Part shown: one piece after another, positions 3,228 to 46,128 of the stretch
How the letters are laid out: every line of letters starts with the position of its first letter
Position numbering within the stretch: position 1 is the first letter of the stretch
Assembly: GCA_024641545.1 (NCBI GenBank)
Contig: JAHECW010000022.1
Coordinates: 1-46,128 of the forward strand
Length of the DNA: 46,128 nucleotides
Source: Acidobacteriota bacterium
GTDB taxonomy: Bacteria > Acidobacteriota > Thermoanaerobaculia > Thermoanaerobaculales > Sulfomarinibacteraceae
Direction of reading: 5' to 3'
The notes under the pieces: generated by a model
Databases searched by the model: none
What the model saw: only the letters and a program-made list of their open reading frames with translations
Told to the model about the DNA's origin: nothing
Position numbers and translations under genes: made by a program

Positions 3228-3238
3228 CTTTCCCTCCG

Positions 3239-21400: not shown

Positions 21401-21877
21401 TTCGACCACGCCGAAGGCCTCGGCGGGCGCCATCACCCCCTTGCCGAGCCTCGCCCTGAGCGACATGCCGCTGAGCAGCTCCATGGTGAGGAAGACGATC
21501 TCCTCCCCGGTCGGCTGCACGTGCCGGCCGAGATCGAAGATCCGGCAGACGTTCCGGTGGCTGACCTTGCGCGCGATCTGGATCTCCCTGCGGAACCGAT
21601 CGAGGGTCATGGGGTCGTTCGCCGACCTCGGTAGGATGGTCTTCAGAGCGACACGCTCCCCGAGCTCCCGGTCGTGGACCTGATAGACCTCTCCCATCCC
21701 GCCGCGGGCGAGAAAGCGCTCCACCTCGTAGCGCCCGGCCAGGATCTGTCCCGCCGAGAACCCGGGCTTGAGTCTGAACCGCCCGTCAGCATCGCCGGGT
21801 CGGACCGGGTCGACGTTGGTGAGCGTCGGATCGTCCCCGGAGCCCGATGGATCTCTGGGATCGAGGTCGTCAGCCAC
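18491..21877 (-). CDS. Ser/Thr protein kinase with TolB-like region and TPR repeats
   Basis: The 1128-residue protein has an N-terminal Hanks-type kinase: glycine loop [10 protein letters not shown] (56-65), Lys79, HRDLKPSN (175-182), DFG (198-200) and [11 protein letters not shown] single membrane segment (about 336-356) follows. Residues about 375-500 match the TolB/FlgO-like region that binds no DNA but is common behind such kinases ([27 protein letters not shown] split here by family). From about 520 to the end are at least ten TPR-like helical pairs. All kinase catalytic residues are intact. It starts with GTG 21877 overlapping the stop of the TPP-enzyme gene by eight bases, so its synthesis is coupled to that operon, which is unusual for a sensor kinase. 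Its substrate is unknown. Confidence 0.9.
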
Positions 21878-23591
21878 TCATTCTCCTCATCAGTGCCCGG
21901 ACCAGCATTCTCAGCCGATCGCGCCAGGGGAAGCGCCAGAAATTGGTTGCCACCACGCCGCGACTGAAATAGGTCTTCTCGCTGTAGTCGATGGCGACCT
22001 CAACCATCACCGGGACGTGAGAACGAACCAGTTCCAGGGCGGCGGGGATCACCGACTCGAGTTCGGCGTCGCGGATGATTCGGAAGTACCGGCACCCGAC
22101 CGCCTCGGCCACCGACTGCACGCTGTAGTCGGGCAGAATGCTGCAGGTCTGACGGTTGAGCGGGATCTTCTGGAACTCGGCGATGAGCCCGTGCTTACCG
22201 TCCCGGAGAACGCAGATCAGCGGCGTCGCTCCGTAGGTCGCCGCAGTCAGGGCCTCGAGACCGGTCATCAGAAAGGCCCCGTCCCCGGCAAGGGTGACCA
22301 CATCGCGGTCCGGGTTGGCGAAGGCGGCGCCGATGGAGGCCGGAACCGAGTAACCCATACAGGAGAAATCGATCGGTCCGATGAAACACGCCGGGTGATC
22401 GAGTCGGAGATGCTCGGCCGCGAGAAAGGTCCCGTTACCGCTGTCCGTGGCGTAGATCGCATCATCGCTGCAGTAGCGCTGGAGGGCGGAGAAGAACGCA
22501 TCCGGCGTGACCCTGGTTTGCGATGCTGACGCCTTCCAGCCGCGGCAGACCATTTCGTGGCCGTCCGCGATCTCCCGCGCCAGGTTCTCGACCGGCCGCT
22601 GCCCTTGGATGAGCTCGGTCAGTGCGCCGAGAAACTCCTTGGCGTCCGCCGCCACCGCGAGGGTGGTCGGGACGTTCCTGCCCAGCACCTCGGGATCGAT
22701 GTCGACGTGAATCACGGTCTCGGGCGGCGAGACCCCGTACGAACCGGTGGCGACCTCGCCGAATCGGCACCCGACCGCCAGCAGACAGTCGCAGCGATCC
22801 ATGATCGCGCGCACGAAAGGCGGCGTCGTGCGGCCGATCCCGGTCCAGAGCCAGAGCGGGTGGGACTCGGGGAAGACACCTTTGCCCTGAAAGGTCGTCA
22901 CCACCGGCGCGCCGAGCTGTTCGGCAAGCGAGATCAGCTCGTGTCTTCCCGTCACCGCTCCGGCGCCGACGTAGATGGCAGCTTGTTTCGCGTCACCGAG
23001 CAGACGCGCGGCGCTTTCCACGAGATCGCGGTCGAACACCCGGTCGGGCGCCGGCTCCGGTTCCCACGACGGTTCGACGACATCCTGGGTCAGCATCAAA
23101 TAGTCGGCCGGGATCTCCACCGCCACCGGTCCCGCCGGCGCCGTGCGCGCGATCTGGAAAGCGCGGCGGATGGTGGAGTAGATCTCGGACGGGCTCTCGA
23201 TCCGCATCGCCGCTTTGGTCACCGGTCGGAGAATCGCGATCTGATCGATATCGTGCAGCTGAAACGAGGCCCCGGTGTCGCGCCGGATCCCGCAGGCCAG
23301 GACGACCAGCGGAACCTGGTCCATGAACGCCTCGGCGATCCCCGACATGCTGTGGGTCACGCCTGCTCCCGGGACAACGTTGAGCACACCCACCTGATCC
23401 GATGACCGCGAGACCCCGTCTCCCATGAAGGCGCCGGCGACTTCGGAGGTCACCAAGATCGCCTCGACCGTGGGCTCTTCGTCGATCGCGTCGTAGAGTT
23501 CGATATTGTGGGTTCCCGGAATCCCAAAGGTGAATTTGACCCCCTCGTCGGCGAGGGCGCGGGCGACGAGCTTTGAGCCGCGAAGCTTCAT
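21870..23591 (-). CDS. thiamine pyrophosphate-dependent enzyme (acetolactate synthase-like)
   Basis: The 573-residue enzyme has the three domains of the POX/ALS family: Pyr (FGIPGTHNIELYDAI, catalytic Glu in TSEVAGAFMGDG near residue 50), central FAD/Rossmann-like (AAIYVGAGA) and PP. The TPP-magnesium motif starts AGDGAFLM near 430 but ends LRDGKHG, where most relatives have NN; the Asp can still bind the metal. Reactions in this family are decarboxylation or carboligation of 2-keto acids; this one cannot be assigned from sequence. The last 25 residues are basic and could touch the membrane. It overlaps the GMC gene in ATGA and the kinase gene by eight bases, so the three are one operon. Confidence 0.85.
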   Translation of the reverse strand: MKLRGSKLVARALADEGVKFTFGIPGTHNIELYDAIDEEPTVEAILVTSEVAGAFMGDGVSRSSDQVGVLNVVPGAGVTHSMSGIAEAFMDQVPLVVLACGIRRDTGASFQLHDIDQIAILRPVTKAAMRIESPSEIYSTIRRAFQIARTAPAGPVAVEIPADYLMLTQDVVEPSWEPEPAPDRVFDRDLVESAARLLGDAKQAAIYVGAGAVTGRHELISLAEQLGAPVVTTFQGKGVFPESHPLWLWTGIGRTTPPFVRAIMDRCDCLLAVGCRFGEVATGSYGVSPPETVIHVDIDPEVLGRNVPTTLAVAADAKEFLGALTELIQGQRPVENLAREIADGHEMVCRGWKASASQTRVTPDAFFSALQRYCSDDAIYATDSGNGTFLAAEHLRLDHPACFIGPIDFSCMGYSVPASIGAAFANPDRDVVTLAGDGAFLMTGLEALTAATYGATPLICVLRDGKHGLIAEFQKIPLNRQTCSILPDYSVQSVAEAVGCRYFRIIRDAELESVIPAALELVRSHVPVMVEVAIDYSEKTYFSRGVVATNFWRFPWRDRLRMLVRALMRRMSG

Positions 23592-25090
23592 GATTGCAAC
23601 AACTCCCCCGCATGGTCGCGGATGTGCTCCGCGACCCGGTCCGCCAGTGCCATGACCGTGACATACGGATTGACCTCGGAGGATTGGGGAAAGAGCCCCG
23701 AATCAGCGACATAGAGAGCGCGGGCGCCGTGCACCCGCCCCCACCCGTCGGCCACCGAGTCCGACGCGTCGCGGCCCATTCGGCAACCACCCATGAGATG
23801 GGCGCTGGTCACCGAGATCTTGCCTGGAACGACGTTGGCGCGGGGGATCATCTCCTCCACGCGTCCGGCGTCCTTTCGGTCGATGAAGAACGAAACTCCG
23901 GCCGGGGCGTGAACCCGCTGCGCGCCGGCGGCGAAGAAGATCCTGGCGCTCGTCACCATGCTGCGGTGGAGCGAGTCGAGAACGGTCGGACCCATGGTGT
24001 AGTCGATCACCGCCTCGCCGTCACCGTCGAGGAGAACCCGATTCGAAGCCAGGGCCGGATCCATCGCCAGCACGAGGATCATCTGCAACCGCGGAAAGGC
24101 GCGCATGAGCTCGGAGTGCTCGGCGCCGAACCCGATGAGGTTTTTCGCCGTGGTGAACGGGAAGTACATGCAGGTTTCGAGGATGAACCGCTCCGATTCA
24201 CGGAACTCGTCGCAATAGAAGCTCTTGGGGTGGCCGCGAAAGTTCGAGATCTCGTGCGGATGCTCGCCGACGAGGATGAGCGCCGGGTGGAGGGTCAGAT
24301 AGCGCCCGAGCGCCGGCAGGCGATCGCCGTAACCGGATCGCAGCAACAGCGCCGATGAATTGACGGCGCCGCCGCAGACCACGATGACCCCGGCCTTGAT
24401 CCGATACTCGCCCGGTTCCCAAACCGAGGGAAGACCGAAACCCGGATCGGCCACCACCGCATCGCAGCTCGCCTCCCCGACCCTGGTCACCCTGCAGTTG
24501 GTGATCACCTCGACCCCTGCCGCCTCCGCGACGGGCAGCTGAACCCGGTGGGTGCCCTGCTTGGCGCCGTTGGGGCAGCCCATGTTGCACAGGCTCGACG
24601 AGCGGCACCCCTTGACGTTGATGGGGAACTGCTCCACGTTGTAGCCGAGCTCGAGACAGCCGGCCCGAAACAGGCGGTTGTTGTCGTTGAGTTCGGATTC
24701 ATCGAGCTTGTGGGCGTTGTTCTCGTCGAGGTACTTGGCTGACCGTTGCTGAAGATCGCCGTAATCGATGCCCGGAACATCCCAGCCTGCGACCACCTCC
24801 CCGGGGATGGTCAGCGAGGTCCCGGTGTACATGACCGTTGACCCGCCGTAGGCCTTGCCGTAGGCCATGGTCACGGTCCGGTCCCTGGTGAAGACGCCGC
24901 CGGAATCGAAGAAGATCTGCCGGGCCATCTCGACCTCACGGCCGGTGTAGGCGTCTTCGGCGAGCTTCGGTCCCCACTCCAAGACCGCGATCCGCTTACC
25001 GGCGGCGGCCAGCGGTGCGAGCTCCTTGGCCACCGCGCCGCCTCCGGCGCCGGAACCGACGATCACCACGTCGTAGTCGAGCTCACGCAC
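23588..25090 (-). CDS. GMC-family FAD-dependent oxidoreductase
   Basis: The 500-residue flavoenzyme starts with the dinucleotide-binding loop VVIVGSGAGGGAVAKELA and continues with the GMC block GKAYGGSTVMYTG. Catalytic residues are His in SAHLMGGCRMG and Asn in SSEVNPYVTVMALA near the C-terminus. The cysteine-containing CNMGCPNGAKQGTH segment is typical of long-chain alcohol oxidase and cytochrome-linked GMC dehydrogenases rather than choline or glucose oxidases. It probably oxidises a hydrophobic alcohol or a sterol-like substrate, passing electrons to the chain. It starts with GTG 25090, preceded by GGGAGGGGG. It overlaps the small-subunit gene upstream by eight bases and the TPP gene downstream by four. 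Confidence 0.9.
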   Translation of the reverse strand: MRELDYDVVIVGSGAGGGAVAKELAPLAAAGKRIAVLEWGPKLAEDAYTGREVEMARQIFFDSGGVFTRDRTVTMAYGKAYGGSTVMYTGTSLTIPGEVVAGWDVPGIDYGDLQQRSAKYLDENNAHKLDESELNDNNRLFRAGCLELGYNVEQFPINVKGCRSSSLCNMGCPNGAKQGTHRVQLPVAEAAGVEVITNCRVTRVGEASCDAVVADPGFGLPSVWEPGEYRIKAGVIVVCGGAVNSSALLLRSGYGDRLPALGRYLTLHPALILVGEHPHEISNFRGHPKSFYCDEFRESERFILETCMYFPFTTAKNLIGFGAEHSELMRAFPRLQMILVLAMDPALASNRVLLDGDGEAVIDYTMGPTVLDSLHRSMVTSARIFFAAGAQRVHAPAGVSFFIDRKDAGRVEEMIPRANVVPGKISVTSAHLMGGCRMGRDASDSVADGWGRVHGARALYVADSGLFPQSSEVNPYVTVMALADRVAEHIRDHAGELLQS

Positions 25091-25490
25091 GGCGCACCCC
25101 CTCCCGTCCGTCGAAGTCGGGGGCGTAGCCGATGGCGCTCCAGTTCTCCTCCTGGCCGTAGTAGCCCATGAAGACCAGCACCTTCAGGCCCCAGAACCCT
25201 TTCCGCAGCAGGGCCACCGGGCAGTCCTGGAAGAACCGGAGCACGGCGGTTCTCCGATCCGCGTCGAGGCGGTCGAAGCTCCGACCGAACCGAAACAGCG
25301 GCGCCATCCGAATGACCGAAAGAAAGGTCCCGAACTGCTTTCGGGTCGCGGCGTCGCGATTCTCGAGCGCTGCGTCGACGATGGCCTCCATTCTCGCGCG
25401 GCCGCCGGCGTCCAACGAGCCGACCTCCGGGGTGATGGTTTCTGCGACGACCATGAAGAACGCGGCGTGTCCGCCGGACAGGAATTTCAT
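25083..25490 (-). CDS. small partner of the GMC oxidoreductase (gluconate 2-dehydrogenase subunit 3-like)
   Basis: The 135-residue protein is helical and ends with FMGYYGQEENWSAIGYAPDFDGRE, a C-terminal pattern seen in gluconate 2-dehydrogenase subunit 3-type partners of GMC enzymes. FQDCPVALLRKGF is also typical. Such subunits bind and export or stabilise the flavin subunit. The overlap with the GMC gene supports the pairing. I place the start at the ATG at 25490 because a TACAAT box ends seven bases upstream; the ATG at 25499 overlaps that box. No twin-arginine signal is seen, so the complex may stay in the cytoplasm. The family match is by eye and moderate. Confidence 0.7.
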   Translation of the reverse strand: MKFLSGGHAAFFMVVAETITPEVGSLDAGGRARMEAIVDAALENRDAATRKQFGTFLSVIRMAPLFRFGRSFDRLDADRRTAVLRFFQDCPVALLRKGFWGLKVLVFMGYYGQEENWSAIGYAPDFDGREGVRRA

Positions 25491-25497
25491 CACTGGC

Positions 25498-25503
25498 ATT
25501 GTA
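25498..25503 (-). promoter_or_regulatory. -10 box before the GMC small-subunit gene
   Basis: TACAAT on the minus strand lies seven bases before the ATG at 25490. With no Shine-Dalgarno this implies a leaderless start and an operon promoter internal to the minus-strand run. Confidence 0.45.
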
Positions 25504-25587
25504 CAAGGGGCGCGGAGGCTTGAGGGCTTGGCGTGATCGCGGATGCTGCGACGGTCGCTGTCCCGGTCGAGGCCTCGGCGTCGATGC

Positions 25588-26418
25588 CTACCCCAGTCCG
25601 AACTTCTTACCCAAGACCCGCGCGAGCAGCTTCTTCGGCAGCATGGCCAGGGCGGGAACGAGCCGCGCGCCGCCGCCGATCTTGAGCACCGCCGGAGGGT
25701 TCGCGCTCGTCGCGGCGTCGGCAACCCGGCGGGCGAACTCCGCCGCCGGCATCGCGAGGTTCTTCGACATCGCCGCGCGCGCCTCCATGGCGGCAACCCT
25801 GTCGTGGTAGAGCGATTCCGGATTTCGGAAGCGATCGAGGCCCCTCTCCGCGGCGACAGGGAAGTTCGTCGCCACCCCACCGGCGCGGACCACCAGCACG
25901 TGGATGCCGAACGGCGCGACCTCCGGACGGAGGGCATCGGAGAGCAGGTGGAGGGCGGCCTTGCTCGCCGAGTAGGCGCCACCGAAGGGCGTGGCCAGCA
26001 GGCTCGAAACCGAGCCGATGTTGACGATGCACCCGCCGCCCGCGGCGGCCATGTGAGGAACCACCGCTTGAACGGCCGCCACCGCACCCACGACGTTGGT
26101 TTCGAGCTGCCGGCGAAGATCCGCGATCGACACCTCCGCCACCGGACCGACCAACGCGTAGCCGGCGTTGTTGACCAGGATGTCGATCCTGCCGGCCCAG
26201 CCGATGGTCTCGGCGACGGCGCGATCGATGCTTTCGGCCTCGGTGACATCGAGGGCCAGCGTCAGGCACCGATCACCGACCAGGTCGGCGAGCGAATCAG
26301 TGTTCCGGGCGGTGGCCGCCACCCGGTCACCCCGCTCGAGAAACTCCACCGCGAGGGCCCGACCGATTCCCGATGAGCAACCCGTGATGAGCACCACTCG
26401 TTGATCGTGTGGTTTCAA
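25588..26418 (-). CDS. short-chain dehydrogenase/reductase
   Basis: The 276-residue SDR has the NAD(P) loop TGCSSGIG, the NNAG motif, the catalytic Ser in NIGSVSS and the YSASK active site (GAYSASKAA). It belongs to the classical group; NADP use is suggested by Arg in ATARN after strand 2. The substrate is unknown, but lipid, sterol or retinol-like ketones and alcohols are common for this subgroup. I start it at TTG 26418: the stop codon of the hydrolase gene lies five bases before it and GGGGG is in range, giving MKPHDQRVVLITG. The longer frame into the hydrolase gene is rejected. It likely shares an operon with the hydrolase. Confidence 0.86.
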   Translation of the reverse strand: MKPHDQRVVLITGCSSGIGRALAVEFLERGDRVAATARNTDSLADLVGDRCLTLALDVTEAESIDRAVAETIGWAGRIDILVNNAGYALVGPVAEVSIADLRRQLETNVVGAVAAVQAVVPHMAAAGGGCIVNIGSVSSLLATPFGGAYSASKAALHLLSDALRPEVAPFGIHVLVVRAGGVATNFPVAAERGLDRFRNPESLYHDRVAAMEARAAMSKNLAMPAAEFARRVADAATSANPPAVLKIGGGARLVPALAMLPKKLLARVLGKKFGLG

Positions 26419-26423
26419 ACCCG

Positions 26424-27329
26424 TTACCCCCGCATTTCCCGGCAATGAGTGAGGAACTCGCGCAGAGCTCCGAGATAGTCCGATCCCCCGACGAGCCACA
26501 GCTCGTTGTGTTTCGCACCCGCCACCTCGACCCACCGCTTGTCACCGGTCGCGGCGTCGAAAAGCTGCCGACCCTGCTCGTACGGCACGACCTCATCGTC
26601 GGGAGAGTGGATGAACAGAACCGGGCAACCCACGCCTCGGATCTTCGACCGCGAGTCCATCTTCGTCCGCACCAGCCACCGGGGAATGAAGGGATAGTGG
26701 TGGGCCGCCATCTCGGGGATCGAGGCGAAGCTCGACTCGACGATCAAACCCGCCGGATCGACCTCGGTCGCCAGGTCCACCGCCACGGCCCCCCCGAGGC
26801 TCTTCCCGAGAATCACGATCCGATGGGCGTCGACCCCCGCATCCTCCCTGAGGAATCGCCAGGCCGCGCGGGCGTCGCGGTAGAGACCCTTTTCGCTCGC
26901 CCGGCCGGTGCTTCGGCCATAGCCCCGATAGTCGACGATGAAGACCTGCGCCGGGATCCCGGCGAGCTCGACCATGAGGTCCGCCCGCTGGGAGAGGTTG
27001 CCGGCGTTGCCGTGGAACCAGAGCAGGACCATGTCGGAGGTGGTGGCGGGCGCCGCCCCCGGCGCTGCGGGTCGGCACCACCAGCCGTGCAGCCGTTCGC
27101 CGTCTGAGGTCGGGAAGAAACAGTCCTCAACCGAGGTGCCGGTGCCGCGGGAAACAGCACCGGCGTCCCAGAACCCAGCCGGGTACCGATCCGGGAAGAA
27201 GATCATCGCGTCTTCGAAGACCGCCATCGTGATGATCATGGTAGCCCAGAGCGCGACGGCGCTGATCGCCAACCCGACCCACCAGGGTCGTGGCGACCGT
27301 CGCCCCAGCTTCCACCCGGACCCGCTCAT
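26424..27329 (-). CDS. membrane-anchored alpha/beta hydrolase (BEM46/ABHD-like)
   Basis: The 301-residue protein has an N-terminal membrane segment (about 18-38, WWVGLAISAVALWATMIITMAV) and an alpha/beta hydrolase domain. The oxyanion segment is FHGNAGNLSQR, the nucleophile elbow GKSLGG, the acid in SPDDEVVP and the histidine in AKHNEL. This is the BEM46/ABHD13 pattern, often lipid or thioester hydrolases held at the membrane. The ATG at 27329 has GGAAGG in range; 44 further upstream codons run into the divergent promoter and are rejected. The SDR gene begins five bases after its stop. The ligase fusion gene is transcribed away from it, 130 bases upstream. Confidence 0.88.
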   Translation of the reverse strand: MSGSGWKLGRRSPRPWWVGLAISAVALWATMIITMAVFEDAMIFFPDRYPAGFWDAGAVSRGTGTSVEDCFFPTSDGERLHGWWCRPAAPGAAPATTSDMVLLWFHGNAGNLSQRADLMVELAGIPAQVFIVDYRGYGRSTGRASEKGLYRDARAAWRFLREDAGVDAHRIVILGKSLGGAVAVDLATEVDPAGLIVESSFASIPEMAAHHYPFIPRWLVRTKMDSRSKIRGVGCPVLFIHSPDDEVVPYEQGRQLFDAATGDKRWVEVAGAKHNELWLVGGSDYLGALREFLTHCREMRG

Positions 27330-27397
27330 CCTGCCTTCCAGTGAACCACTCCACCCCGGAAATCGCCAGGACCCGGTTCGATTCAACCTCCCTACCC

Positions 27398-27446
27398 CCC
27401 GATTTTTGCGGGAGGCTCGGAGAGCGAGCGGCCCCCGAAAATCGGG
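27398..27446. promoter_or_regulatory. large inverted repeat between divergent hydrolase and ligase-fusion genes
   Basis: Perfect nine-base arms CCCGATTTT (27398-27406) and AAAATCGGG (27438-27446) enclose a 31-base spacer that itself holds GCTCG-GAGAG-CGAGC. It ends one base before the TAGAGT -10 box of the fusion gene and lacks a T-run on either strand, so it reads as an operator or cruciform rather than a terminator. Confidence 0.5.
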
Positions 27447-27452
27447 TAGAGT
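27447..27452 (+). promoter_or_regulatory. -10 box immediately before the ligase-fusion gene
   Basis: TAGAGT ends seven bases before the ATG at 27460. A GAGG lies in the gap, so translation could use either a very short leader or a leaderless start. Confidence 0.35.
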
Positions 27453-27459
27453 GAGGTCC

Positions 27460-30400
27460 ATGAGCAGAATCGACTCCCCTTCCGACCCCTTCGACGATCT
27501 CCTCGACTGCGAACCCGAAGCCGCCGCGCGCGAACTGACCGAGCTTCTCGCCCTCGACGCGCCCGGACGCCGCGAGGAGGCCGACGCCCGCGCGGTTCAC
27601 ATCCTCGAGAACCGTTCCATGGGTGACGAACTCATCGACCACGTCGACCTCGCTGTGCTGTTCGCCCTCGGCGAGCGTCTGGTCGCGCAGCAGACGCCGG
27701 GGAGCCCTCGTCCCGACGATGAGCGGCGCTGGGAAGCCTGGTCGTTTCTCGACGCCGTTCGTCGATCGAACCTGCTTGTTCGGATCGCCGAAGCCGATGC
27801 GGTCGCCCGTTGGTCCGAGCTGACTCTTCGGCTCGTCTCGGCCTCCCATTTCACCTTTGGTCCCCTCTTCGAGCAACGCGTCGCAGGCTACGGATCACGA
27901 ACGCTCTTCGAGGTGCCCGGCCGCAACGGATCGACCAACGTGAGCTGGCATCAGGTGGCCGGACGGGTGGGGCTCATCGCGCGAGGGCTCCTCGCACTCA
28001 CCGCCGAGGGCGGGGACAAACCCGTCGCCATCCTCTCCGAGAACCGTCTCGAGATGGCGCTGACCGACCTCGCCTGCCTGACCACCGGCATCGTCGACGT
28101 CCTGATCCCGGCAACCGCTACCGAAGCCGAGGTCGGCTACATTATCGAACATTCCGGCGCCGGCACGGTGATCGTTTCGAACTCGGTCCAGCTCAAGAAG
28201 GTCGAGGCGCACCGGGGAAAGCTGCCGGTCGTCGATCATGTCGTCGCCTTCGACGGAGCAGCCTCGTCGGCCCGCGACGTCCTCGGTTTCGAGGAGGTCC
28301 TGGGGCGCGCAACGGAGATCTCGCCCGAGACCCTCGGCGAGCGGCGGGCGACGGTCTCCATCGAGGATCCCGCCACGGTGATGTACACCTCGGGGACCAC
28401 CGGTCGGCCCAAGGGAATTCTGTTTTCGCAGCGGAACATCGTCTTCAAACGATTCGCCCGCGCCCTCGCCCTGCCCAAGATCGGCGAAGATGACAGGCTC
28501 CTCTGCTATCTGCCCCTCTTCCACACCTTCGGTCGATTCCTCGAGCTCTGCGGGTCGATCTTCTGGGGAGCGACCTACCGGTTCGCCGAGAACCCGTCCA
28601 TCGACGGCCTCGTTCGCGAGATGCAGACCTATCGCCCGACGGTCTTCATCAGCATCCCGATGAAGTGGATCCAACTCTACGAACGGATTCGCCAGGAGGT
28701 CAACATCGAGTCGTCGGCCGACTCCGAGATCGCCGCCACCGTCGACCGGATCACCGGCGGGAAGCTCCGCTGGGGCCTCTCGGCCGCCGGGTACCTCGAT
28801 CCCGAGGTCTTCCGTTTCTTTCAGCGCTACGGGGTCGAGCTCATGAGCGGCTTCGGGATGACCGAGGCCACCGGAGGCATCACGATGACGGTGCCGGGGG
28901 TCTATGTCGAGGACTCCCTCGGCGTGCCGCTTCCGGGCATCGAGGCCGAACTTGCGGACGACGGCGAGCTCGTGATCCGGGGCCCCTACGTGATGATGGG
29001 CTATCTCAACGACCCGGAGGGCCGGCCGTCCTTCGATCCCGACGGTTGGTTTCACACCGGCGACCTCATGGAGCGCGATGCGGCGGGTCAGTTCCACATG
29101 GTCGACCGAAAGAAGGAAATCTACAAAAACGTCAAGGGTCAGACCATTGCACCGCAGAAGGTCGAGAACCTGTTTCGAGACTTCGATTCGGTCGCGAGGA
29201 TCTTCCTGGTCGGCGACCACCGACCCTATAACAGCGCCCTGATCTTCCCCAATTTCGACTTCCAAGAGGTCGACCTCAGAGCCCTCGACGCCCGCGACCG
29301 CAAGGCGCACTACCGATCGCTCGTGGTGAGCGCCAACTCCTTCCTCGCACCGTTCGAGCGGATCGTCGACTTCGCCGTCATCGATCGCGACTTCGACCCG
29401 GATCGCGGCGAGCTCACCCCCAAAGGCAGTTACCGCCGAAAGATCATCGAGCGCAACTTCTCGGACACCATCAAGCTGCTCTATCGCCGGACCACCCTCT
29501 CTCTCGGCGGCGCGGCGGTCATGGTTCCGAACTGGCTCTTCCAGGCCCTCGGCATCACCGCCCAGGAGCTCGAGATCGAGGACTGCCGCCTGACCCTGGG
29601 CAGCGTCGGCTCGAAGTTGACGATTCGAGCCCTCGAGGGCACCGAGATTCAAATCGGGTCCGTCGTCTACGGTTACACGGGAGGCAGGTCCCTCGATCTC
29701 GGCCTCATCCTCTCGACCCCCCTGCTCTGGCTCGGCAACAGCGAGCTGGTCGACTTCGCACCGCTGGCGATCGAGCACCGCGACCGCCGGCGTCGCCGCG
29801 AACCCAAGATCGAATGGCTGCGGCACCTGCACACCCATGAAGTGACGCCGGCCGATCGTGACGCCATCGAGGAGATTCAAAAGCCGGGCGAGATTGATCT
29901 CATGGATCTCCACCATGTCGCGTGCGTCATGAATTCAGCCGACACCGAGGTCGCCGAACGCGCCGTCGCCCTGCTCGAAGACACCATCGAACATGGCGAA
30001 GGCGAGCTCACGGAAACCACCCTGAGCATCCTCCGCCACACCGCTTCCGGCCGGCAGCCGGAGATAGCGAGGCGCGCATTCGGGGTATTGACGCTCAGCG
30101 AAAGACCCGTTCTCTACCCCCAGACCCTGCGGAGTTTCATCGATGCCCTTCCCGACCTCTTCGACCACGAGACCGGCGCCGCTCTCAGCGAGCATGAGCT
30201 CTCACCGGAGACGATCAAGACCCTGGTCACCGAAACCGAGCATCGCTTCCGGTTGGGAATCGAATCCGAGTCCGCCATGGCCACCGCCACCTCCATGCTG
30301 CGGTTTCTCGCGAACTACGGCGCTTCCCACCCCGCCCGCTACCGACAGCTCCGGGCGTTCATCACCCGGATGAGCATCGCGGCGCCGTCGCCGCACGGGA

Positions 30401-32223
30401 CCCTGCTCGCCCGCAACGCCGTCACGATTCTCAACGACGGATTTCGCCATTGGCTCGGCCGGCCTTCACGGATCGCAGTCGATCCCGAGACCGGGTTCGA
30501 ATACCGATGGGACGACGTGGTCGCGTTCGCCGAGGATGTGGATGACGAGGCGAAGCACCGCCTCCTCGCTGCGATCAAGAGCACGACCATGTTGCAGGAG
30601 GGCATCTTTCTCTTCTCCCGCGGCAGCGCGGTTCGGCTCGACGACATCCTTCCCGGCGGGGTCTGGATCAGGCTTCTCGGAACCGAGCACGGCAAGTCGG
30701 TTTACCGGATGGCGGTGAAGACCCGCAATCTCGGTCAGTTCGACCTCGCCATCAACCTCAACCGCGAGCTCACGGAAGACCAGGTGATGGAGGAGATCGA
30801 CTGGCTCGTGGTCTGCGCTGAGGAGCGGGATCTCGGCCCGTTGGTGGAGGACTTCGGCGGCTACTGGCCCGAGCACGGTCTGTGGACCGAGGAGTTCATT
30901 CCCGGTGAAACCCTCGACCGCGCCGTCATTCGTCTCTCGAGAAAAGACCTCGATTCCGAGCGTCTCGAGGCGCTCTGGCCGTTCGCGGCGTGGAGCGCCA
31001 TGTCCGCCTATGTCGATTTCTGGAACCGGACGGGTCGCCGCCTCATGGTGGCCGACCCGACTCCGGGGAACGTGATCGTCCCGACCCACGACTACCACAC
31101 CGGCGCGCGTCTGGTTTCGATCGCATCACGCCGCGAGTTCGACTCGTTGACCGCGATGCTCCGGCGGTTCATGGACCAACTGGTTCTTCCCATCGAGAGT
31201 CTGAACCCGTTGCTCGAAGGCGTGGTCGGTTGGGACATCGTCTTTTCCTCGGTTCTGGAGATCGTCGGCGAGGCCGAAGGCCGCAGCCTGCTCACCGAGG
31301 TCGCCGCTCAAGCCCACCGGACCGGGTGCGATTTCGCCGACCGGCTGGATCACTATCTCGAGGTCGTCGCAACCCGCGGTTTCCTGCCGCGCAGACTCTT
31401 TTTCGCCGCCAAGCGTTTTCGCAAATGGGACCGGTTGGCGCCCGACGCGACCCACACGGTGCGCGCCCGGACCATGCAGGAGCTCTATGAGACCTACCGG
31501 CTCTCCGAGCTCCGGGAGTCGTCCCCCGAGAGCCGCGCCCGTTTCTTCAGGGAAACGGTCCTGCGCAACGTATCCCAGCCCCTCGCCGAAGGCCTCGAAC
31601 GCCTCATCAGCGAGCTGCGATCCGGACAGATGCAGACCGACGATCTCAGTTCGGCGGTGGCCGATCTGCGCGCCCACCTCGAACTCGACCCGGAGAACGA
31701 CTACTTTCTCGCCCGTCTGTCCTACCCGTACCTGCGTCCGGAGGACGATGCCGAGTACGTGGCCTCGGTCGCCAGCGGCGTCCAGCACAGCGAGATGGTC
31801 GTCACCTTCGATGATCCGGACGGGCGGACCTACGGCATCCGCCACGCGCTCAACCCCAAGGAGATCGCCCGCCTCCATCGCCTCTTCCTCGCTGCCAAGC
31901 TGCCGGTCCACTTCCGGGCGGAACACCGATTCCTGGTCGCCGTATCCGACCGCGGGCACCTGCTCGGCGGGCTGTTCTACGAGTTGGAACCCGAGGCCCA
32001 GACCGCCCACATGGACAAGGTCGTCGTCACCGAGAGCGCCCGCGCCCACGGTGTGGCCGGTCATCTCCTGGATGAGCTCGCCAACCGCCTGAAGGCCGAG
32101 AACTACCGGTGGCTGACCACCGGGTTCTTCCGCCCTCAGTTCTTCTACCGCTACGGCTTCACCGTCGAACGCCGGTACGCCGGCCTCGTCCGGTCGCTTC
32201 AGGACGAAAACAAAGGCGAGTGA
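27460..32223 (+). CDS. giant acyl-CoA ligase / helical-repeat / kinase-like / GNAT fusion protein
   Basis: This 1587-residue protein joins several domains. Residues 1-130 are helical and unassigned. Residues about 135-670 are an AMP-forming acyl-CoA ligase: YTSGTTGRPKG (309-319), SGFGMTEATGG (about 462), GWFHTGD (about 529), and the C-terminal lysine block LTPKGSYRRKII (about 650-662). About 690-790 is a small beta-rich region. About 810-1010 looks like HEAT-type helices. About 1010-1340 resembles an aminoglycoside-phosphotransferase or Kdo-kinase fold: EEFIPGETL as hinge and DPTPGNVIV near 1199, matching the DxxxxN catalytic loop, but with His and DFG-like Asp missing. Residues about 1440-1587 are a GNAT acetyltransferase with the acyl-CoA loop ARAHGVAGHLL. 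It may make an acyl-CoA and transfer the acyl group itself. No homologue is known to me. Confidence 0.85.
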   Translation: MSRIDSPSDPFDDLLDCEPEAAARELTELLALDAPGRREEADARAVHILENRSMGDELIDHVDLAVLFALGERLVAQQTPGSPRPDDERRWEAWSFLDAVRRSNLLVRIAEADAVARWSELTLRLVSASHFTFGPLFEQRVAGYGSRTLFEVPGRNGSTNVSWHQVAGRVGLIARGLLALTAEGGDKPVAILSENRLEMALTDLACLTTGIVDVLIPATATEAEVGYIIEHSGAGTVIVSNSVQLKKVEAHRGKLPVVDHVVAFDGAASSARDVLGFEEVLGRATEISPETLGERRATVSIEDPATVMYTSGTTGRPKGILFSQRNIVFKRFARALALPKIGEDDRLLCYLPLFHTFGRFLELCGSIFWGATYRFAENPSIDGLVREMQTYRPTVFISIPMKWIQLYERIRQEVNIESSADSEIAATVDRITGGKLRWGLSAAGYLDPEVFRFFQRYGVELMSGFGMTEATGGITMTVPGVYVEDSLGVPLPGIEAELADDGELVIRGPYVMMGYLNDPEGRPSFDPDGWFHTGDLMERDAAGQFHMVDRKKEIYKNVKGQTIAPQKVENLFRDFDSVARIFLVGDHRPYNSALIFPNFDFQEVDLRALDARDRKAHYRSLVVSANSFLAPFERIVDFAVIDRDFDPDRGELTPKGSYRRKIIERNFSDTIKLLYRRTTLSLGGAAVMVPNWLFQALGITAQELEIEDCRLTLGSVGSKLTIRALEGTEIQIGSVVYGYTGGRSLDLGLILSTPLLWLGNSELVDFAPLAIEHRDRRRRREPKIEWLRHLHTHEVTPADRDAIEEIQKPGEIDLMDLHHVACVMNSADTEVAERAVALLEDTIEHGEGELTETTLSILRHTASGRQPEIARRAFGVLTLSERPVLYPQTLRSFIDALPDLFDHETGAALSEHELSPETIKTLVTETEHRFRLGIESESAMATATSMLRFLANYGASHPARYRQLRAFITRMSIAAPSPHGTLLARNAVTILNDGFRHWLGRPSRIAVDPETGFEYRWDDVVAFAEDVDDEAKHRLLAAIKSTTMLQEGIFLFSRGSAVRLDDILPGGVWIRLLGTEHGKSVYRMAVKTRNLGQFDLAINLNRELTEDQVMEEIDWLVVCAEERDLGPLVEDFGGYWPEHGLWTEEFIPGETLDRAVIRLSRKDLDSERLEALWPFAAWSAMSAYVDFWNRTGRRLMVADPTPGNVIVPTHDYHTGARLVSIASRREFDSLTAMLRRFMDQLVLPIESLNPLLEGVVGWDIVFSSVLEIVGEAEGRSLLTEVAAQAHRTGCDFADRLDHYLEVVATRGFLPRRLFFAAKRFRKWDRLAPDATHTVRARTMQELYETYRLSELRESSPESRARFFRETVLRNVSQPLAEGLERLISELRSGQMQTDDLSSAVADLRAHLELDPENDYFLARLSYPYLRPEDDAEYVASVASGVQHSEMVVTFDDPDGRTYGIRHALNPKEIARLHRLFLAAKLPVHFRAEHRFLVAVSDRGHLLGGLFYELEPEAQTAHMDKVVVTESARAHGVAGHLLDELANRLKAENYRWLTTGFFRPQFFYRYGFTVERRYAGLVRSLQDENKGE

Positions 32224-32365: not shown

Positions 32366-35300
32366 CTATCGGTAGCCGAAGATCATGGCGTAGACGATGA
32401 GGAAGATCAGGGTCAGACCGATCCCCAACGCGGTGAACCCGACAATCCTGGCCAACCGTTCGATGCGCTTCTTGGCCGGTCCCTTGATCCGGGTCTTCAA
32501 CTGCTCGGGATCGGCGCCCTCGATAAACACCTCGTACTCGCCGGGCTTGTCATGTTTGAGTTCGTCGATCGGGACCCGGCCGGTGAAGATCACCGGGTCC
32601 ATGGGGAACTTGTCGGGCCGGAAGTGGGTATTGAAAAAGTGGATGGTGAAGATGAACCCGACCGCCAGAAGCGCCTCATCCGAGTGGATGATGGTCGCCA
32701 CGTTGACCGACCAACCGGGCAGGATGCGGGTGAAGAACTCGGGGAACCACAACACGAGACCGGTCGATCCGATGATGAAGACCCCCCAGAAGACCGCGAA
32801 GTAGTCGAACTTCTCCCAGTAGGTGAAACGACCGTAGTGGGGTCGCGGCCCGCTGCCGAGGAACCACCTGATGCTCTGAAAGACCTGTTTGATGTCGTTG
32901 AGGTTGAACATCAGCGAGTTGACCGGGTCGAAGATGAACCTGAACCAACTCTTGCCCGACGCCCCCTTCGCCTTGAAAACGTCACGGAGGTGATAGGCGA
33001 AGAGGCAGATCAGCACCACCGCCGCGGTGCGGTGCAGGTTGCCCATGCTGGCGTAGCCGCCGAAGACGCGGGTCACGACCTGAGCCCAGCCCATGAAGGA
33101 GAACTTGAGCGCCATCCCGGACAGGGCGAGGGTGAAGAAGCTCGTCAACATGATGAAGTGCATGATCCGCTGCTTCGAGGTGAAGCGGATGTAGAACCGT
33201 TCCTCCTTGTGGCCGGTTTCCTTGATCGGCAGCCAGACATCGCGAGTCCGCCACAGCCTGAAGAGCCACATCAAGGTGTGGAGCATGGCGAAGGTCAGGG
33301 TCGAGACCAGCAGCGTGGTCATGAACCAATAGGCGTAGAAGAGGAAGGGGTACTTCTCCTTGTCATGGTGGGTGGCGTGGCTGAGGTAGCCGGCGAACTG
33401 CAGGTGCGCCCTCGGGTGGCACTGGCCGCAGGTGTCGACGATGTGGCGCTGGCTGAGGGTCGACTCCGGGTTGTCGGCGGGCAGGATGCCGTGGGTGCCG
33501 TGGCAGTCGTAGCACTTGGCCGCGCCCTCCGATCCGAGCTGGGTCACCTTGCCGTGGTAGGTCTCGAAGAAGGTCTCGGCGTAGTCCTCGTGGCACCGGC
33601 CGCACTGGTTCATCATCATGAAACGGAAACCCTGGGCATCGACCCGGGTGATCTCATGCGAGCTGTGACAGCTCTCGCAGGTCGGAAGCGGCTCGTTGGT
33701 CACGACGTTGGCCGGAAAGTGAACGCTCGCCTTGAACTCCTCCTCGATGCCCTTGTGGCAGGTGCCGCAGGTGTCGAGGATCCGGGTGTGGCTGACGGTT
33801 GACCGCGGATCATCCTGCGGCAGCGCCGAATGCGCTGTGTGACAGTCGATGCAACTCGCCGAGACCACAAGACCGCTGCCGACGAGTCCTCGGCCGTGGG
33901 TGCTCTCTATGTAACTCTTCACAATATCGCGCTCGTCACCGAGCCGCACCGCGGCCGACTGGCCGGCCGCGTGGCAGGAACCGCAGAGCTCGGGGATGTT
34001 GCGCGAGTACACGGGGGACGTGGGGAGGCGATGGTCCTTGATGGCGTGCGCATCCCGGTGGCAGCTCTTGCAGGTCGGCGCATCGGGGTCGCCCTGCGCC
34101 GCCAGTTCGCCGTGCCGGCTCAGGTCGTGTTCTTCGACCCGCGCGGCGTGGCAGATCCCGCAGTCCACCGGCTCTGTGATCGTCGCGCACGCCCGCTCGG
34201 GGTGTTTCGGGTTCACCTCGGTGTGACACTGGGCGCAGGCCGTCTGTGCGTGCGATGACAGGGCGTAGGTTTCGGCGTCGATATAAAGCGGGACCACCTC
34301 GCCATCGCGCTCGACGCTCAACTGCGCATCACCGTGGCACCTGAGACAGCTCTGGGTCGAGGCCTCCTGCGCCGCCACCGCTCGTCGCCGGATCTTGTGC
34401 GGCTGGTGACACTCGACGCACGACGGAACCTTGTGCGGTTCCTCCTCCCAGAGGCGTCCTTCGATGACCTTGACGTGGACCTCCTCGATCCTGGCGTGGC
34501 ACTGCATACAGGTCTTGGCGACGTTGGTCCGGTTGATGCTCGACGCCGGGTTGTTGTGATCGAGGATGTTGTGCGCCGTGTGGCACGAGGTGCACACCGC
34601 GGTCACCGTCAAACCCTTGCTGAAGAGCGCGGTCCCGTGCACCGACATGGAGAAGTTCTCGAGGATCCGGTCCTGCGGAATGTCGTGCTGCAAGGACACC
34701 TCGGTGCCCTCGCGGTGGCATCGCCCGCAGAGCAGCGGGATGTTCTGGACCGCCGTCGGTGAACTCGGGTCGATATGGCGTTTGATGGCGTGATGATCGT
34801 GACAGATGATGCAGTTCGGCGCCGCCGGATCACCCTTGACCGCTGCGCGACCGTGGAGCGAGTCCCGGTTCTCGCGGGCCTGCTGCTCGTGACAGGTTCC
34901 GCAAACCCGGACCTGGGCCAGCGGTTCGTTGGGCGCGATCACCGCGTGACCGCGATGGCAGTCGGCACAGGTGGAGGCCGGGCGGCCCTCGACCATCCCG
35001 CCGTGCGGGCTCCTGGCCACGGTCCTGAGCTGGCTGGGGTGGCATTTCGCACAGAGATCGTTGACCCGAGCCGGAGAGGTCGGCGAGCCCGGCGTCTTGC
35101 TCGAACGTACGCTGTGGACCCCGTGGCAACCGGTGCAGGCCGCGGCCGGCGAGGACGGATCCGTGGCCCACTTCCCGTGCGGGCCCGACCTGAACTGCTC
35201 GGCCATGTCGTCGTGGCACGCGGCGCAGTCGACGGCCTCGAGCTCTTCCTGGTGCGGGAGCTCGACGCCATCCAGATCGACATGGCAGTCGATGCATGCG

Positions 35301-35530
35301 AACTCGGCATGAACCGAAGCGGCAAACGCCGCCGGATCGACGTAGACGGAGATTTCGCTTCCAGCTCGTTCGCCGACGAGCTTGGCATCTTCGTGGCACA
35401 TGAGACAGTCGGCGTTTTCCTGGGCGGCGGCGGTTGGTGCGAACAGCCAGAGCCCGGCGATGAACAGCGCCAGACCGGATTTCACAATGAACGACGACGC
35501 CTCGAGACGCGACGGGACAGAATCCTTCAT
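32366..35530 (-). CDS. 23-heme c-type cytochrome fused to a cytochrome b membrane domain
   Basis: The 1054-residue protein has a signal peptide (LALFIAGLWLFAPTAAA) and then 23 CXXCH c-type heme motifs between about residues 42 and 715. About six membrane segments follow (about 735-1050), carrying histidines suited to b-type hemes: RIMHFIML, NLHRTAAVV, FAYHL, IIHSDEALL and HFFNTHF. This is the CbcL-type layout: a membrane quinol oxidase whose periplasmic hemes pass electrons outward. CbcL of Geobacter has about nine c hemes, so this is far larger. Hemes 1-2 and 7-12 repeat as 13-14 and 15-20, an internal duplication. The start is the ATG at 35530 with AAGGGG upstream, under a strong promoter. 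Extracellular or respiratory electron transfer is inferred. Confidence 0.9.
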   Translation of the reverse strand: MKDSVPSRLEASSFIVKSGLALFIAGLWLFAPTAAAQENADCLMCHEDAKLVGERAGSEISVYVDPAAFAASVHAEFACIDCHVDLDGVELPHQEELEAVDCAACHDDMAEQFRSGPHGKWATDPSSPAAACTGCHGVHSVRSSKTPGSPTSPARVNDLCAKCHPSQLRTVARSPHGGMVEGRPASTCADCHRGHAVIAPNEPLAQVRVCGTCHEQQARENRDSLHGRAAVKGDPAAPNCIICHDHHAIKRHIDPSSPTAVQNIPLLCGRCHREGTEVSLQHDIPQDRILENFSMSVHGTALFSKGLTVTAVCTSCHTAHNILDHNNPASSINRTNVAKTCMQCHARIEEVHVKVIEGRLWEEEPHKVPSCVECHQPHKIRRRAVAAQEASTQSCLRCHGDAQLSVERDGEVVPLYIDAETYALSSHAQTACAQCHTEVNPKHPERACATITEPVDCGICHAARVEEHDLSRHGELAAQGDPDAPTCKSCHRDAHAIKDHRLPTSPVYSRNIPELCGSCHAAGQSAAVRLGDERDIVKSYIESTHGRGLVGSGLVVSASCIDCHTAHSALPQDDPRSTVSHTRILDTCGTCHKGIEEEFKASVHFPANVVTNEPLPTCESCHSSHEITRVDAQGFRFMMMNQCGRCHEDYAETFFETYHGKVTQLGSEGAAKCYDCHGTHGILPADNPESTLSQRHIVDTCGQCHPRAHLQFAGYLSHATHHDKEKYPFLFYAYWFMTTLLVSTLTFAMLHTLMWLFRLWRTRDVWLPIKETGHKEERFYIRFTSKQRIMHFIMLTSFFTLALSGMALKFSFMGWAQVVTRVFGGYASMGNLHRTAAVVLICLFAYHLRDVFKAKGASGKSWFRFIFDPVNSLMFNLNDIKQVFQSIRWFLGSGPRPHYGRFTYWEKFDYFAVFWGVFIIGSTGLVLWFPEFFTRILPGWSVNVATIIHSDEALLAVGFIFTIHFFNTHFRPDKFPMDPVIFTGRVPIDELKHDKPGEYEVFIEGADPEQLKTRIKGPAKKRIERLARIVGFTALGIGLTLIFLIVYAMIFGYR

Positions 35531-35579: not shown

Positions 35580-35710
35580 GATCACGCAACTCGCTGCAAT
35601 TGAGACACTTGTTCAATACTCCCGAAAGCAGGAAACGCCGGAAATGACCCTCTCATATTTCACGATCCGCGCCCGATGGGATTCCGGAGCGCGCGAATTC
35701 CCACGGACCC

Positions 35711-35719
35711 TGGCATAAT
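35711..35719 (+). promoter_or_regulatory. extended -10 promoter of the NapC/NirT-like gene
   Basis: TGG-CATAAT lies 55 bases before the ATG at 35775; GGAGG is seven bases before that ATG. No -35 box is clear. The rest of the 244-base divergent spacer shows no gene. Confidence 0.4.
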
Positions 35720-35774
35720 CTCCCAGTCGAGCAATAGCGCAATCTACGCCGCGGCAGCATCCGGAGGTCTCACG

Positions 35775-37235
35775 ATGGTCGCCCTTCCCGATCCGAAAAA
35801 GAGCTTTGGTCGAGTCTTCAACTACGCGAACAACCCCATCACCATCATCGGTATCGGACTGACCACGCTGTCGGCCCTGGTGATCATCACCTTCCTGGTC
35901 GTCGAGCTCTTCGGCGAGCTCGAGAACCCCTACATCGGGCTTTTCGCCTACGTCGCCATGCCCGCGGTCTTTGTCCTCGGTCTGACCTTGATTCCCGTCG
36001 GGATGTGGAGGCGGCGCGGCGCCTTGATCGCCGAAGGCGCCACCGAGACCGAGAAATCGAGATATCCCAGACTCGATTTCAACGATCCGAAAGTCCGCCG
36101 GGGCGGGATCATCATCATCGGCCTCACCGCGGTCAACGCGGTCATCTTCGGTTCCAGCTCGTTCATCGCGGTCGAGAAGATGGAGACCGTCGCGTTCTGC
36201 GGCGAGACCTGCCACACCGTAATGCAGCCGGAGTTCACCGCCTACCAGCAGTCGCCCCACTCGCGAGTCGCCTGCGTCGAATGCCACATCGGACCCGGCG
36301 CCTCGTGGTTCGTGAAGTCCAAGCTCGACGGACTTCGCCAGGTCTGGCACACCGCTCTCGACACCTACTCGCGACCGGTCGGAACCCCGTTGAAAACCCT
36401 CCGTCCCGCCCGTGAAACCTGCGAGCAGTGCCACTGGCCCGGCAAGCACCACGGCGACAAGCTGCGGGTGCTCGTCCGCCACGCCACCGACGAAAAAAAC
36501 ACCCCTTCCTACACGGTCATGCTGCTCAAGACCGGTGGCGGCAACCTGGATATCGGGCGTCACGGAGGAATTCACTGGTGGCACATCGAGTCGGATAACG
36601 TCATCCGCTACGTCTCGGGCGACGATCGACGGGAATCCGTCCTTTGGGTCGAGTTGACCACCGCCGACGGAGAAGTCAGAACCTACAGCCGTCCCGGTGA
36701 GGAGCTGCCCGCCGACGTTGCAAGCCAGGCCAGAACCATGGATTGCATCGACTGCCACAACCGACCGACCCATCTCTTCAGCACACCGCCGAAGGCTCTC
36801 GATTGGGTTCTGGAAACCCACCCGGAGTTTCTCGAGCTCCCCTATTTCAAGAAACAGGCAAAGACGGCGATCGAGGCGGAGTACACGACCCACTCCGAGG
36901 GAGTGGCGGCGGTTCGCGAGTCGCTGGTCGCTTATTACCGGGACGAGTACCCGGACGTGTTCGCCGAAAACTCCAAATTGGTGGAGGACGGCGCCGATCT
37001 CGCTTCACGCGTCTTCGCCCGAATCTCGTTCCCCGAGATGAACACCAACTGGGAGACCCACCCCAACCACATCGGTCACGACGACTCCCCGGGATGTTGG
37101 AGGTGTCACGACGACGAGATGGCCACTGCCGACGGGAAGCACGTGATCCCGATGGATTGCGAAAACTGCCACGTCTTCCTCGTCGAGGACGCTCCTGATC
37201 GTCCGGATCTCGCCGCTCTCATCAACGGCGCGTGA
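35775..37235 (+). CDS. NapC/NirT-like multiheme membrane cytochrome (quinol dehydrogenase type)
   Basis: The 486-residue protein has two membrane segments near the N-terminus (about 20-45 and 55-75) and a third (about 112-135). Six probable heme c sites follow: CGETCH, a CX3CH site where NapC/NirT proteins have their first heme, then CVECH, CEQCH, CIDCH, CWRCH and CENCH. FCGETCHTVMQPE and SPHSRVACVECHIGPGA are the NapC/NirT signature. Such proteins take electrons from menaquinol and give them to periplasmic cytochromes; ImcH of Geobacter is a seven-heme member used for high-potential acceptors. The start at ATG 35775 has GGAGG in range; 33 upstream codons are rejected. It is divergent from the 23-heme cytochrome, suggesting alternative or joint quinol oxidation routes. 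Confidence 0.87.
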   Translation: MVALPDPKKSFGRVFNYANNPITIIGIGLTTLSALVIITFLVVELFGELENPYIGLFAYVAMPAVFVLGLTLIPVGMWRRRGALIAEGATETEKSRYPRLDFNDPKVRRGGIIIIGLTAVNAVIFGSSSFIAVEKMETVAFCGETCHTVMQPEFTAYQQSPHSRVACVECHIGPGASWFVKSKLDGLRQVWHTALDTYSRPVGTPLKTLRPARETCEQCHWPGKHHGDKLRVLVRHATDEKNTPSYTVMLLKTGGGNLDIGRHGGIHWWHIESDNVIRYVSGDDRRESVLWVELTTADGEVRTYSRPGEELPADVASQARTMDCIDCHNRPTHLFSTPPKALDWVLETHPEFLELPYFKKQAKTAIEAEYTTHSEGVAAVRESLVAYYRDEYPDVFAENSKLVEDGADLASRVFARISFPEMNTNWETHPNHIGHDDSPGCWRCHDDEMATADGKHVIPMDCENCHVFLVEDAPDRPDLAALINGA

Positions 37236-45565: not shown

Positions 45566-45575
45566 GCCTGTGGGC

Positions 45576-45581
45576 ATTGTA
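45576..45581 (-). promoter_or_regulatory. -10 box before the DUF2298 gene
   Basis: TACAAT lies ten bases before the ATG at 45565 and covers the alternative ATG at 45577. There is no Shine-Dalgarno in the gap. Confidence 0.35.
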
Positions 45582-45603
45582 GCGCGGAGAACCGCGCCGG
45601 AGA

Positions 45604-45999
45604 TCAGCGGGCGGATGCCAGATCATCCACGACGGCCCGGGCGAGCTCCGCTCCGAGCCGCAGGTAGGTCTCGATGCCGTCGCGGTCGATGCCGTCCTCG
45701 TGGACCCCGGCGGTCACCACGGTGACCTTGCCGAGCCGCGAGCACACCGCTTCGGCGATTGTTCTGGCGATCGGCTCCTCCTTGTGCGGCGGGATGGTCA
45801 GCACCGAGGTCGACGGCGAAAAACCGGTCGGGCCGCGACCCGGGGTCGGCACCGCGAGCACCACACACCCGACGTGGGGTCGTTCTCCCCCACCCACCGC
45901 CACGACAACGTCGTCGCCGATCTCACAGACCCGAGCGGTCAGCACCCGTCCGCCGGCATCATCGACCACTCGAACCACACGAAGGTCCTCCGAACTCAT
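45604..45999 (-). CDS. LpdD-like prenylated flavin chaperone domain protein (PAC_BAC family)
   Basis: The 131-residue protein matches the LpdD-type domain by its order of motifs: VVVAVGGGERPHVGCVVLA, STSVLTIPPHKEEPIARTIAEAV and VVTAGVHEDGIDRDGIE. Relatives assist UbiD-type decarboxylases that use prenylated flavin, but the family also occurs without a UbiD gene and none is in this window. The whole domain is present with no extra segments. It lies 38 bases before the DUF2298 gene on the same strand. The start at ATG 45999 has only a weak GGGG upstream. Family match is good, function here is unclear. Confidence 0.7.
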   Translation of the reverse strand: MSSEDLRVVRVVDDAGGRVLTARVCEIGDDVVVAVGGGERPHVGCVVLAVPTPGRGPTGFSPSTSVLTIPPHKEEPIARTIAEAVCSRLGKVTVVTAGVHEDGIDRDGIETYLRLGAELARAVVDDLASAR

Positions 46000-46128
46000 C
46001 GCCCCATCATGATCGAACCGGGTCGATTCGAAAAGCTCTGGCTTCGGCTCCGGTTCGGATCCCGCCGATGCCTCGGGTCGGCGGTCTGGCTACGAATCCC
46101 TCTCCCGCGCTCCCGATTGATAAGATCG

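Follow-up and report, generated by a model that had tools for sequence, protein, structure and literature searches.

The window analysed here, a stretch of 46,128 nucleotides in total, contains an open reading frame on the forward strand at 27460..32223 (ATG start, stop codon included), which encodes a protein of 1587 amino acids; all features of this protein given below lie on the same strand. Its first recognised domain is an AMP-forming ligase and its last a GNAT; between these lie, in this order, a small beta domain, an alpha-solenoid and a domain with a kinase fold. Pfam recognises AMP-binding (PF00501) at residues 137-516 (E 1.6e-67), AMP-binding_C_3 (PF23562) at 558-677 (E 1.2e-9) and Acetyltransf_1 (PF00583) at 1484-1567 (E 1.5e-5), and gives no annotation to the roughly 750 residues from 680 to 1430. 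An AlphaFold2 model of residues 680-1587 (mean pLDDT 89, pTM 0.80) shows a solenoid of helices followed by a kinase fold with two lobes and by a GNAT, and Foldseek comparison of the AlphaFold2 models with the PDB returned protein-kinase-fold entries as well as GNATs.

The ligase is preceded by a helical extension (residues 1-130; 27460..27849) that has no Pfam match and in which 2 of the 130 alignment columns are at least 90% identical. The start at 27460 is reasonable, as the N-terminal segment DPFDDLL is common to the fused protein and to its relatives L001 and L002. Divergent from the fused gene lies an alpha/beta-hydrolase gene with an N-terminal hydrophobic segment (26424-27461, reverse strand), and L001 and L002 have a similar divergent hydrolase frame in the corresponding position. 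Because the nominal start codon of this hydrolase overlaps the start of the fused gene, which is read in the opposite direction, one or the other start may be misplaced. A scan for promoters and terminators gave no signal exceeding chance.

It could be argued that such a chain arises from separate genes joined by an assembly or frameshift error, or from a chance open frame, and the assembly containing the window is indeed split into 310 contigs. However, the same order recurs as a single frame of comparable length in ten families, in separately assembled genomes of which one (G095) is a single contig, and the whole chain is under purifying selection. An artefact is thus extremely improbable. 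The first-pass annotation of this DNA had proposed one real chain with this domain order, naming the lack of a kinase or GNAT fold in structure prediction, or a frameshift artefact, as what would overturn the idea. Each of these refuting outcomes failed to appear; Pfam, AlphaFold and the recurrence of the order in the loci fetched from other genomes bear the proposal out. Its additional statement that no described enzyme has this order also holds for the sources searched (Pfam, NCBIfam, PDB and the open-access literature), where none was found. The individual domains are each known already; it is their combination and order that has no match in those sources.

Domains of the fused protein

The ANL (AMP-forming ligase) half is composed of a large domain at about residues 131-545 (27850..29094) and a C-terminal subdomain at residues 556-680 (29125..29499). 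In the A3 P-loop YTSGTTGRPKG (residues 309-319; 28384..28416), G312, G315 and K318 are identical in all covering sequences, and the A3, A5, A7 and A8 motifs show little or no variation among the relatives that cover them. The A10 motif is a variant, TPKGS (residues 653-657; 29416..29430). It reads T-x-K-G-[ST] throughout the family, as compared with T-x-T-L-K in same-genome and plasmid-borne ligases, and therefore the column of the canonical catalytic lysine holds Ser or Thr. K655, two residues upstream of that column, is invariant in the relatives covering it and would be the likely replacement for the displaced lysine. Some fungal adenylate-forming enzymes carry a similar KGT motif. The A8 segment also differs in wording, being YKNxxG[QE]T in the fused ligase and IITSGGKN in the same-genome and plasmid-borne ligases. 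Accordingly, the initial description of this ligase as intact is correct as regards the invariant A3, A5 and A8 motifs, but not as regards the canonical A10 lysine column or the C-terminal subdomain, whose best PDB profile matches and nearest solved relatives are carboxylic acid reductases and not plain CoA ligases.

Carboxylic acid reductases load a tethered pantetheine and not free CoA. For the ANL half, "acyl-CoA ligase" is a default reading. Assignment of the fused protein as a carboxylic acid reductase was rejected, because Pfam detects no carrier (PCP) or reductase domain in it, nor in the part corresponding to residues 680-1587 in 29 relatives. The layout of PF00501 followed by PF23562 is shared with long-chain fatty acyl-CoA synthetases (FadD11/FadD15-like) and with the adenylation domains of carboxylic acid reductases, from which the fused ligase differs in its variant A10 and A8 motifs and in having neither of those additional domains. 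Its identity to canonical ligases is 31-32%. One canonical AMP-forming long-chain ligase, with LTPTLK at A10 and 31% identity to the fused ligase, is encoded in the window itself (1458-3728, reverse strand).

The ligase is followed by a small beta domain, PNWLFQ...LWLGN (residues 685-767; 29512..29760), whose strands are seen in the AlphaFold model and in which 14 of 96 columns are at least 90% identical, and then by a fast-evolving alpha-solenoid, HEAT/ARM-like by prediction (residues 797-1000; 29848..30459). The "HEAT-like helices" proposed initially for this region appear as a solenoid of helical hairpins in the AlphaFold model, and the Pfam HEAT model PF02985 matches just one of 29 relatives, with E 0.18.

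The next domain (residues 1001-1300; 30460..31359) adopts a kinase fold. The AlphaFold model of residues 1000-1425, built with 29 sequences, is confident (pLDDT 92, pTM 0.88), and its best 50 Foldseek matches in the PDB, JAK2, EGFR and the APH-type corramycin phosphotransferase among them, are all kinase-fold proteins (probability 1.00, E about 1e-5), with TM-scores by target length of 0.35-0.46 that indicate a remote likeness. VPS34, a lipid kinase whose kinase domain follows a helical one, is the best match of the larger model of residues 680-1587, but the global fit is poor. Sequence and profile searches with the kinase-like region gave no credible match in PDB or Pfam, and a match to 7on7 was discarded as no stretch of it passes by itself. 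Comparison with a viral fold library gave generic kinase and GNAT matches only. The kinase fold had been called from the sequence alone, and it is supported by both the AlphaFold model and the 50 best PDB matches.

The two-lobed fold is what this domain has in common with eukaryotic-type protein kinases and APH-type phosphotransferases; in contrast to them, the beta3 Lys, the catalytic-loop Asp and the DFG Asp are not conserved, which led us to reject an active kinase. At the beta3 Lys column the relatives have Asn or Val/Ile, except for one Lys and one Gly, and the column of the DFG Asp is Ser (S1220) in 29 of 29, in agreement with the dead catalytic site suspected at first. The equivalent of the catalytic loop, DPTPGN (residues 1199-1204; 31054..31071), had been reported to keep its Asp and Asn. 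While this is true of the fused protein, and Asn1204 is kept in 27 of the 29 relatives, the motif does not characterise the family: of the 29 aligned sequences, Asp1199 is present in 14 of the 20 close ones and in none of the nine distant ones. From this pattern of residues, the domain is best described as an ancestral pseudokinase. R1083, D1095, N1204 and S1220 hardly vary, E1111 is largely conserved, and these positions could mark a reused pocket. The first-pass annotation had suggested that the dead kinase fold may bind CoA or a phosphorylated cofactor. A conserved helical linker, comprising the tail of the kinase C-lobe and the bridge to the GNAT by AlphaFold and column conservation, extends over residues 1301-1428 (31360..31743).

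The chain ends with a GNAT acyltransferase domain at about residues 1429-1580 (31744..32199), identified by profile and by AlphaFold and Foldseek; PF00583 matches it in 29 of 29 relatives. Its CoA pyrophosphate loop, RAHGVA (R/Q-x-x-G-x-G/A; residues 1528-1533; 32041..32058), and a C-terminal GF...LV segment are kept, the fold and the loop in both clades of the family. A GNAT with an acyl-CoA loop had been placed at residues 1440-1587, and the fold and the loop are indeed there, although the domain starts nearer to residue 1430. In 19 of the 20 close relatives the column of the GCN5 general-base Glu (beta4) is occupied by His, and in the distant clade it is variable; an acidic residue two positions further on (D/E1519) is conserved in all covering sequences. 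The best profile match of this domain is Tetrahymena GCN5 (E 7.5e-12), followed by various acetyltransferases of small molecules and of proteins, those for amino acids and diaminobutyrate among them, with human and yeast GCN5 much weaker.

The likeness to a protein acetyltransferase raises the question of Pat-like proteins. Pat/PatZ and SlPatA (types I and II) likewise combine a domain of the acyl-CoA synthetase type with a GNAT in a single polypeptide, and type I has the same layout, with the synthetase domain first and the GNAT last (PMC8556138). In an analogous manner, the fused protein might be a protein lysine acyltransferase that obtains acyl-CoA from its own ligase and chooses target proteins through the solenoid and the pseudokinase, both of which are common protein-binding modules; the absence of a metabolic operon would fit. 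Nonetheless, the synthetase domains described in Pat fusions are exclusively NDP-forming and inactive (PMC8556138), whereas that of the fused protein is AMP-forming, has conserved motifs and is separated from the GNAT by solenoid and pseudokinase. Pfam finds no NDP-forming synthetase domain and matches only AMP-binding and GNAT families, for which reason membership of Pat types I/II was rejected. Moreover, nothing indicates a protein substrate, and the GNAT matches are too mixed for a substrate class to be read from them. Taking both sides together, we consider a Pat-like function quite unlikely.

An N-acyl amine or lipo-amino-acid synthase fed by its own ligase had been suggested on first inspection. 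On that reading the fused protein would, like FeeM and OlsB, use a GNAT-superfamily domain to move a fatty acyl chain onto an amine. FeeM and OlsB take their acyl groups from acyl-ACP and are not known to occur in fusion with a ligase. Pfam models of the FeeM/OlsB type (N-acyl amino acid and ornithine-lipid synthases) match neither the fused protein nor, at E 1, any of the 29 relatives, and a relative that lacks the ligase exists.

Distribution and evolution in Acidobacteriota

A profile of 29 rows, with the C-terminal 908 residues as query, was searched over the genomes of 394 relatives in Acidobacteriota, and 44 of them, from ten families, contain a strong match (E < 1e-170, best match per genome); in the order to which the window belongs, matches occur in 10 of 37 genomes. 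Among the fetched loci, the complete order was read in a single frame of 1525-1640 residues in 25 relatives; another three are truncated where their contigs stop, and in one the ligase is missing. A scan of genome contigs found two close relatives; no relative was confirmed in viral contigs, and in plasmid records nothing matches the C-terminal 897 residues, the ligase being the only part of the whole protein that finds matches there.

Overall identity among the relatives ranges from 20 to 75%. In the close clade it is 41-75%, and in the distant clade it is about 20-23% over the C-terminal part and 36-41% over the ligase. Trees of the ligase, the middle part and the GNAT have 16-17 of 23 splits in common and do not conflict at any split with support of at least 0.9 in both, indicating that the three parts travelled together. 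The simplest reading of these trees is that the parts were joined prior to the split of the close and distant clades.

Between the window and L001, dN/dS is 0.086 in the GNAT, 0.108 in the kinase-like domain and 0.10-0.11 in the ligase, as against 0.26 in the solenoid; all of these values are rough because synonymous sites are near saturation. These values point to purifying selection on every domain. They also bear on the idea that the protein is simply a ligase with non-catalytic appendages, in which the GNAT would be a CoA-binding sensor and the pseudokinase would be structural. In terms of columns at least 90% identical, the ligase is by far the most conserved part (97 of 425 at residues 131-555 and 36 of 125 in the C-terminal subdomain, versus 13 of 159 in the GNAT), and the lack of conservation at the GCN5 catalytic Glu would be in keeping with a sensor. 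Yet the dN/dS of the GNAT is as low as that of the ligase, both clades retain its CoA loop, and active bacterial GNATs do not all have a general-base residue (PMC8556138). In addition, the ligase-less relative would be left without any active site, which makes this possibility very unlikely.

That relative is found in genome G006, from the same family as the window (locus L019, 9681-12269, reverse strand), and is a protein of about 799 residues with solenoid, kinase-like domain and GNAT. It starts at the solenoid, with a plausible ribosome-binding site, downstream of a gene that by eye looks glutamine-amidotransferase-like, and no ortholog of the fused ligase was found in the rest of the draft genome. 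Its GNAT is complete, with the CoA loop intact. This shows, for one draft genome, that the GNAT does not strictly need the fused ligase; there it must draw acyl-CoA from another source, and it probably acts on something besides the fused ligase.

The last point is relevant to a further possibility, namely that the protein is a self-regulated acyl-CoA synthetase whose GNAT would acetylate or acylate a ligase lysine in cis and thereby switch the ligase off, with pseudokinase and solenoid serving as a sensor. The control of AMP-forming synthetases by GNATs is well documented (Pat/AcuA), and Pat types I-III regularly have regulatory domains beside their GNATs (PMC8556138). A precedent for the physical coupling of an AMP-forming synthetase to a GNAT is provided by the stable complex of AcuA and AcsA in B. 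subtilis, in which a ligase lysine has been modelled in the GNAT active site (PMC11255334). AcuA and AcsA differ from the fused protein in being encoded by two genes and in having no pseudokinase or solenoid, and their target is the canonical A10 lysine. This lysine, the usual target of such control, is displaced here, which counts against self-regulation. The match to GCN5, a lysine acetyltransferase, would agree with self-regulation, but this similarity is generic, given the weaker matches to the human and yeast enzymes. An intact GNAT in G006 would be unexpected if the fused ligase were its sole target and weakens the idea, one draft genome being thin evidence. On balance, self-regulation in cis seems unlikely.

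No operon partner is conserved across families. The neighbours vary from one family to another, and a multihaem cytochrome gene is the only one that recurs in some of them. Genes for citrate synthase, methylaspartate ammonia-lyase, an amidase and an NTP transferase are among the others. The fused gene looks like a stand-alone unit.

Proposed activation and transfer in one chain

The reading that we prefer, with a probability of roughly 0.4, is that a single chain couples the activation of an acid to acyl transfer onto an amine, with the solenoid and the pseudokinase as scaffold and as acceptor or effector module. According to this model, the ANL domain would use ATP to adenylate a carboxylic acid, probably a fatty acid, and would then form its thioester with CoA or another pantetheine. 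The C-terminal GNAT would bind the CoA thioester by means of the R/Q-x-x-G-x-A/G loop and would pass the acyl group to an amine. The scaffold formed by solenoid and pseudokinase would set the spacing between the two active sites, while the re-used kinase pocket would most likely recruit the amine acceptor or an allosteric ligand. We infer the chemistry, the nature of the acceptor, the role of the pseudokinase and the passage of the ligase product to the GNAT from the features described above.

Several of these features favour coupled activation and transfer. The A3, A5, A7 and A8 motifs and K655 are maintained in the ligase half, and the GNAT fold and CoA loop are maintained in both clades; the lowest dN/dS values (0.09-0.11) occur at the two catalytic ends and in the kinase-like domain, as opposed to the solenoid; and the trees of the three parts are concordant. 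The complete GNAT of G006 suggests a substrate other than the fused ligase, and there is no conserved operon partner that could supply either half-reaction. On the other hand, most GNAT domains work with acetyl-CoA or with acyl-CoA of short chain length, and the ligase looks long-chain or CAR-like, so that donor and transferase may be mismatched. The displaced A10 lysine, the lack of matches to FeeM- or OlsB-type acyl-transferring GNATs, and the His or variable residue at the catalytic Glu column likewise count against the coupled reaction, as does the fact that the GNAT of G006 must obtain its acyl-CoA elsewhere.

A more specific version of the coupled reaction would place the protein in a new class of self-sufficient N-acyl-transferring synthases. 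Between the acyl-activating and the acyl-transferring site, a former kinase fold would serve to bind the acceptor or a cofactor, and its nearly invariant polar residues would mark the reused pocket; we regard this version as doubtful. If it were true, one chain would take a free acid and an amine to an amide at the expense of ATP. To the few known couplings of acyl activation to a GNAT, the protein would add a class in which the ligase is AMP-forming, belongs to the same chain and is separated from the GNAT by a pseudokinase. If the product were an N-acyl amine, the enzyme could make amides in one pot from free acid, ATP and amine. The occurrence of the protein in ten families and two deep clades, which speaks for an old origin, together with purifying selection, suggests that its product or target matters to these bacteria. 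The protein also provides a clean bacterial example of a kinase fold retained without its catalytic residues and flanked by two active sites that can be assayed.

Other genes in the window

Downstream of the fused gene lies a gene for a protein of 1054 residues that contains numerous c-type haem motifs and, at its C-terminus, a region resembling cytochrome b561 (32366-35530, reverse strand), and divergent from it a gene for a NapC/NirT-like multihaem protein (35676-37235, forward strand). A multihaem cytochrome gene occurs near the fused gene in its own family and in one f15 genome, and relatives of the 1054-residue haem protein are found near it in L001, L002, L014, L018 and L040. On the other side of the hydrolase gene, three tightly packed genes (21870-26249, reverse strand) encode an acetolactate synthase-like TPP enzyme, a GMC oxidoreductase and a protein with weak similarity to gluconate 2-dehydrogenase subunit 3, next to a gene for a Ser/Thr protein kinase of 1128 residues with TPR repeats (18491-21877, reverse strand). 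Towards the end of the window, positions 44001-46000 combine a strong AT skew (+0.31) with a G+C content of 0.69, the maximum in the window, and the only repeat seen in this region is a short tandem repeat with a unit of 21 bases at 44532-44576.
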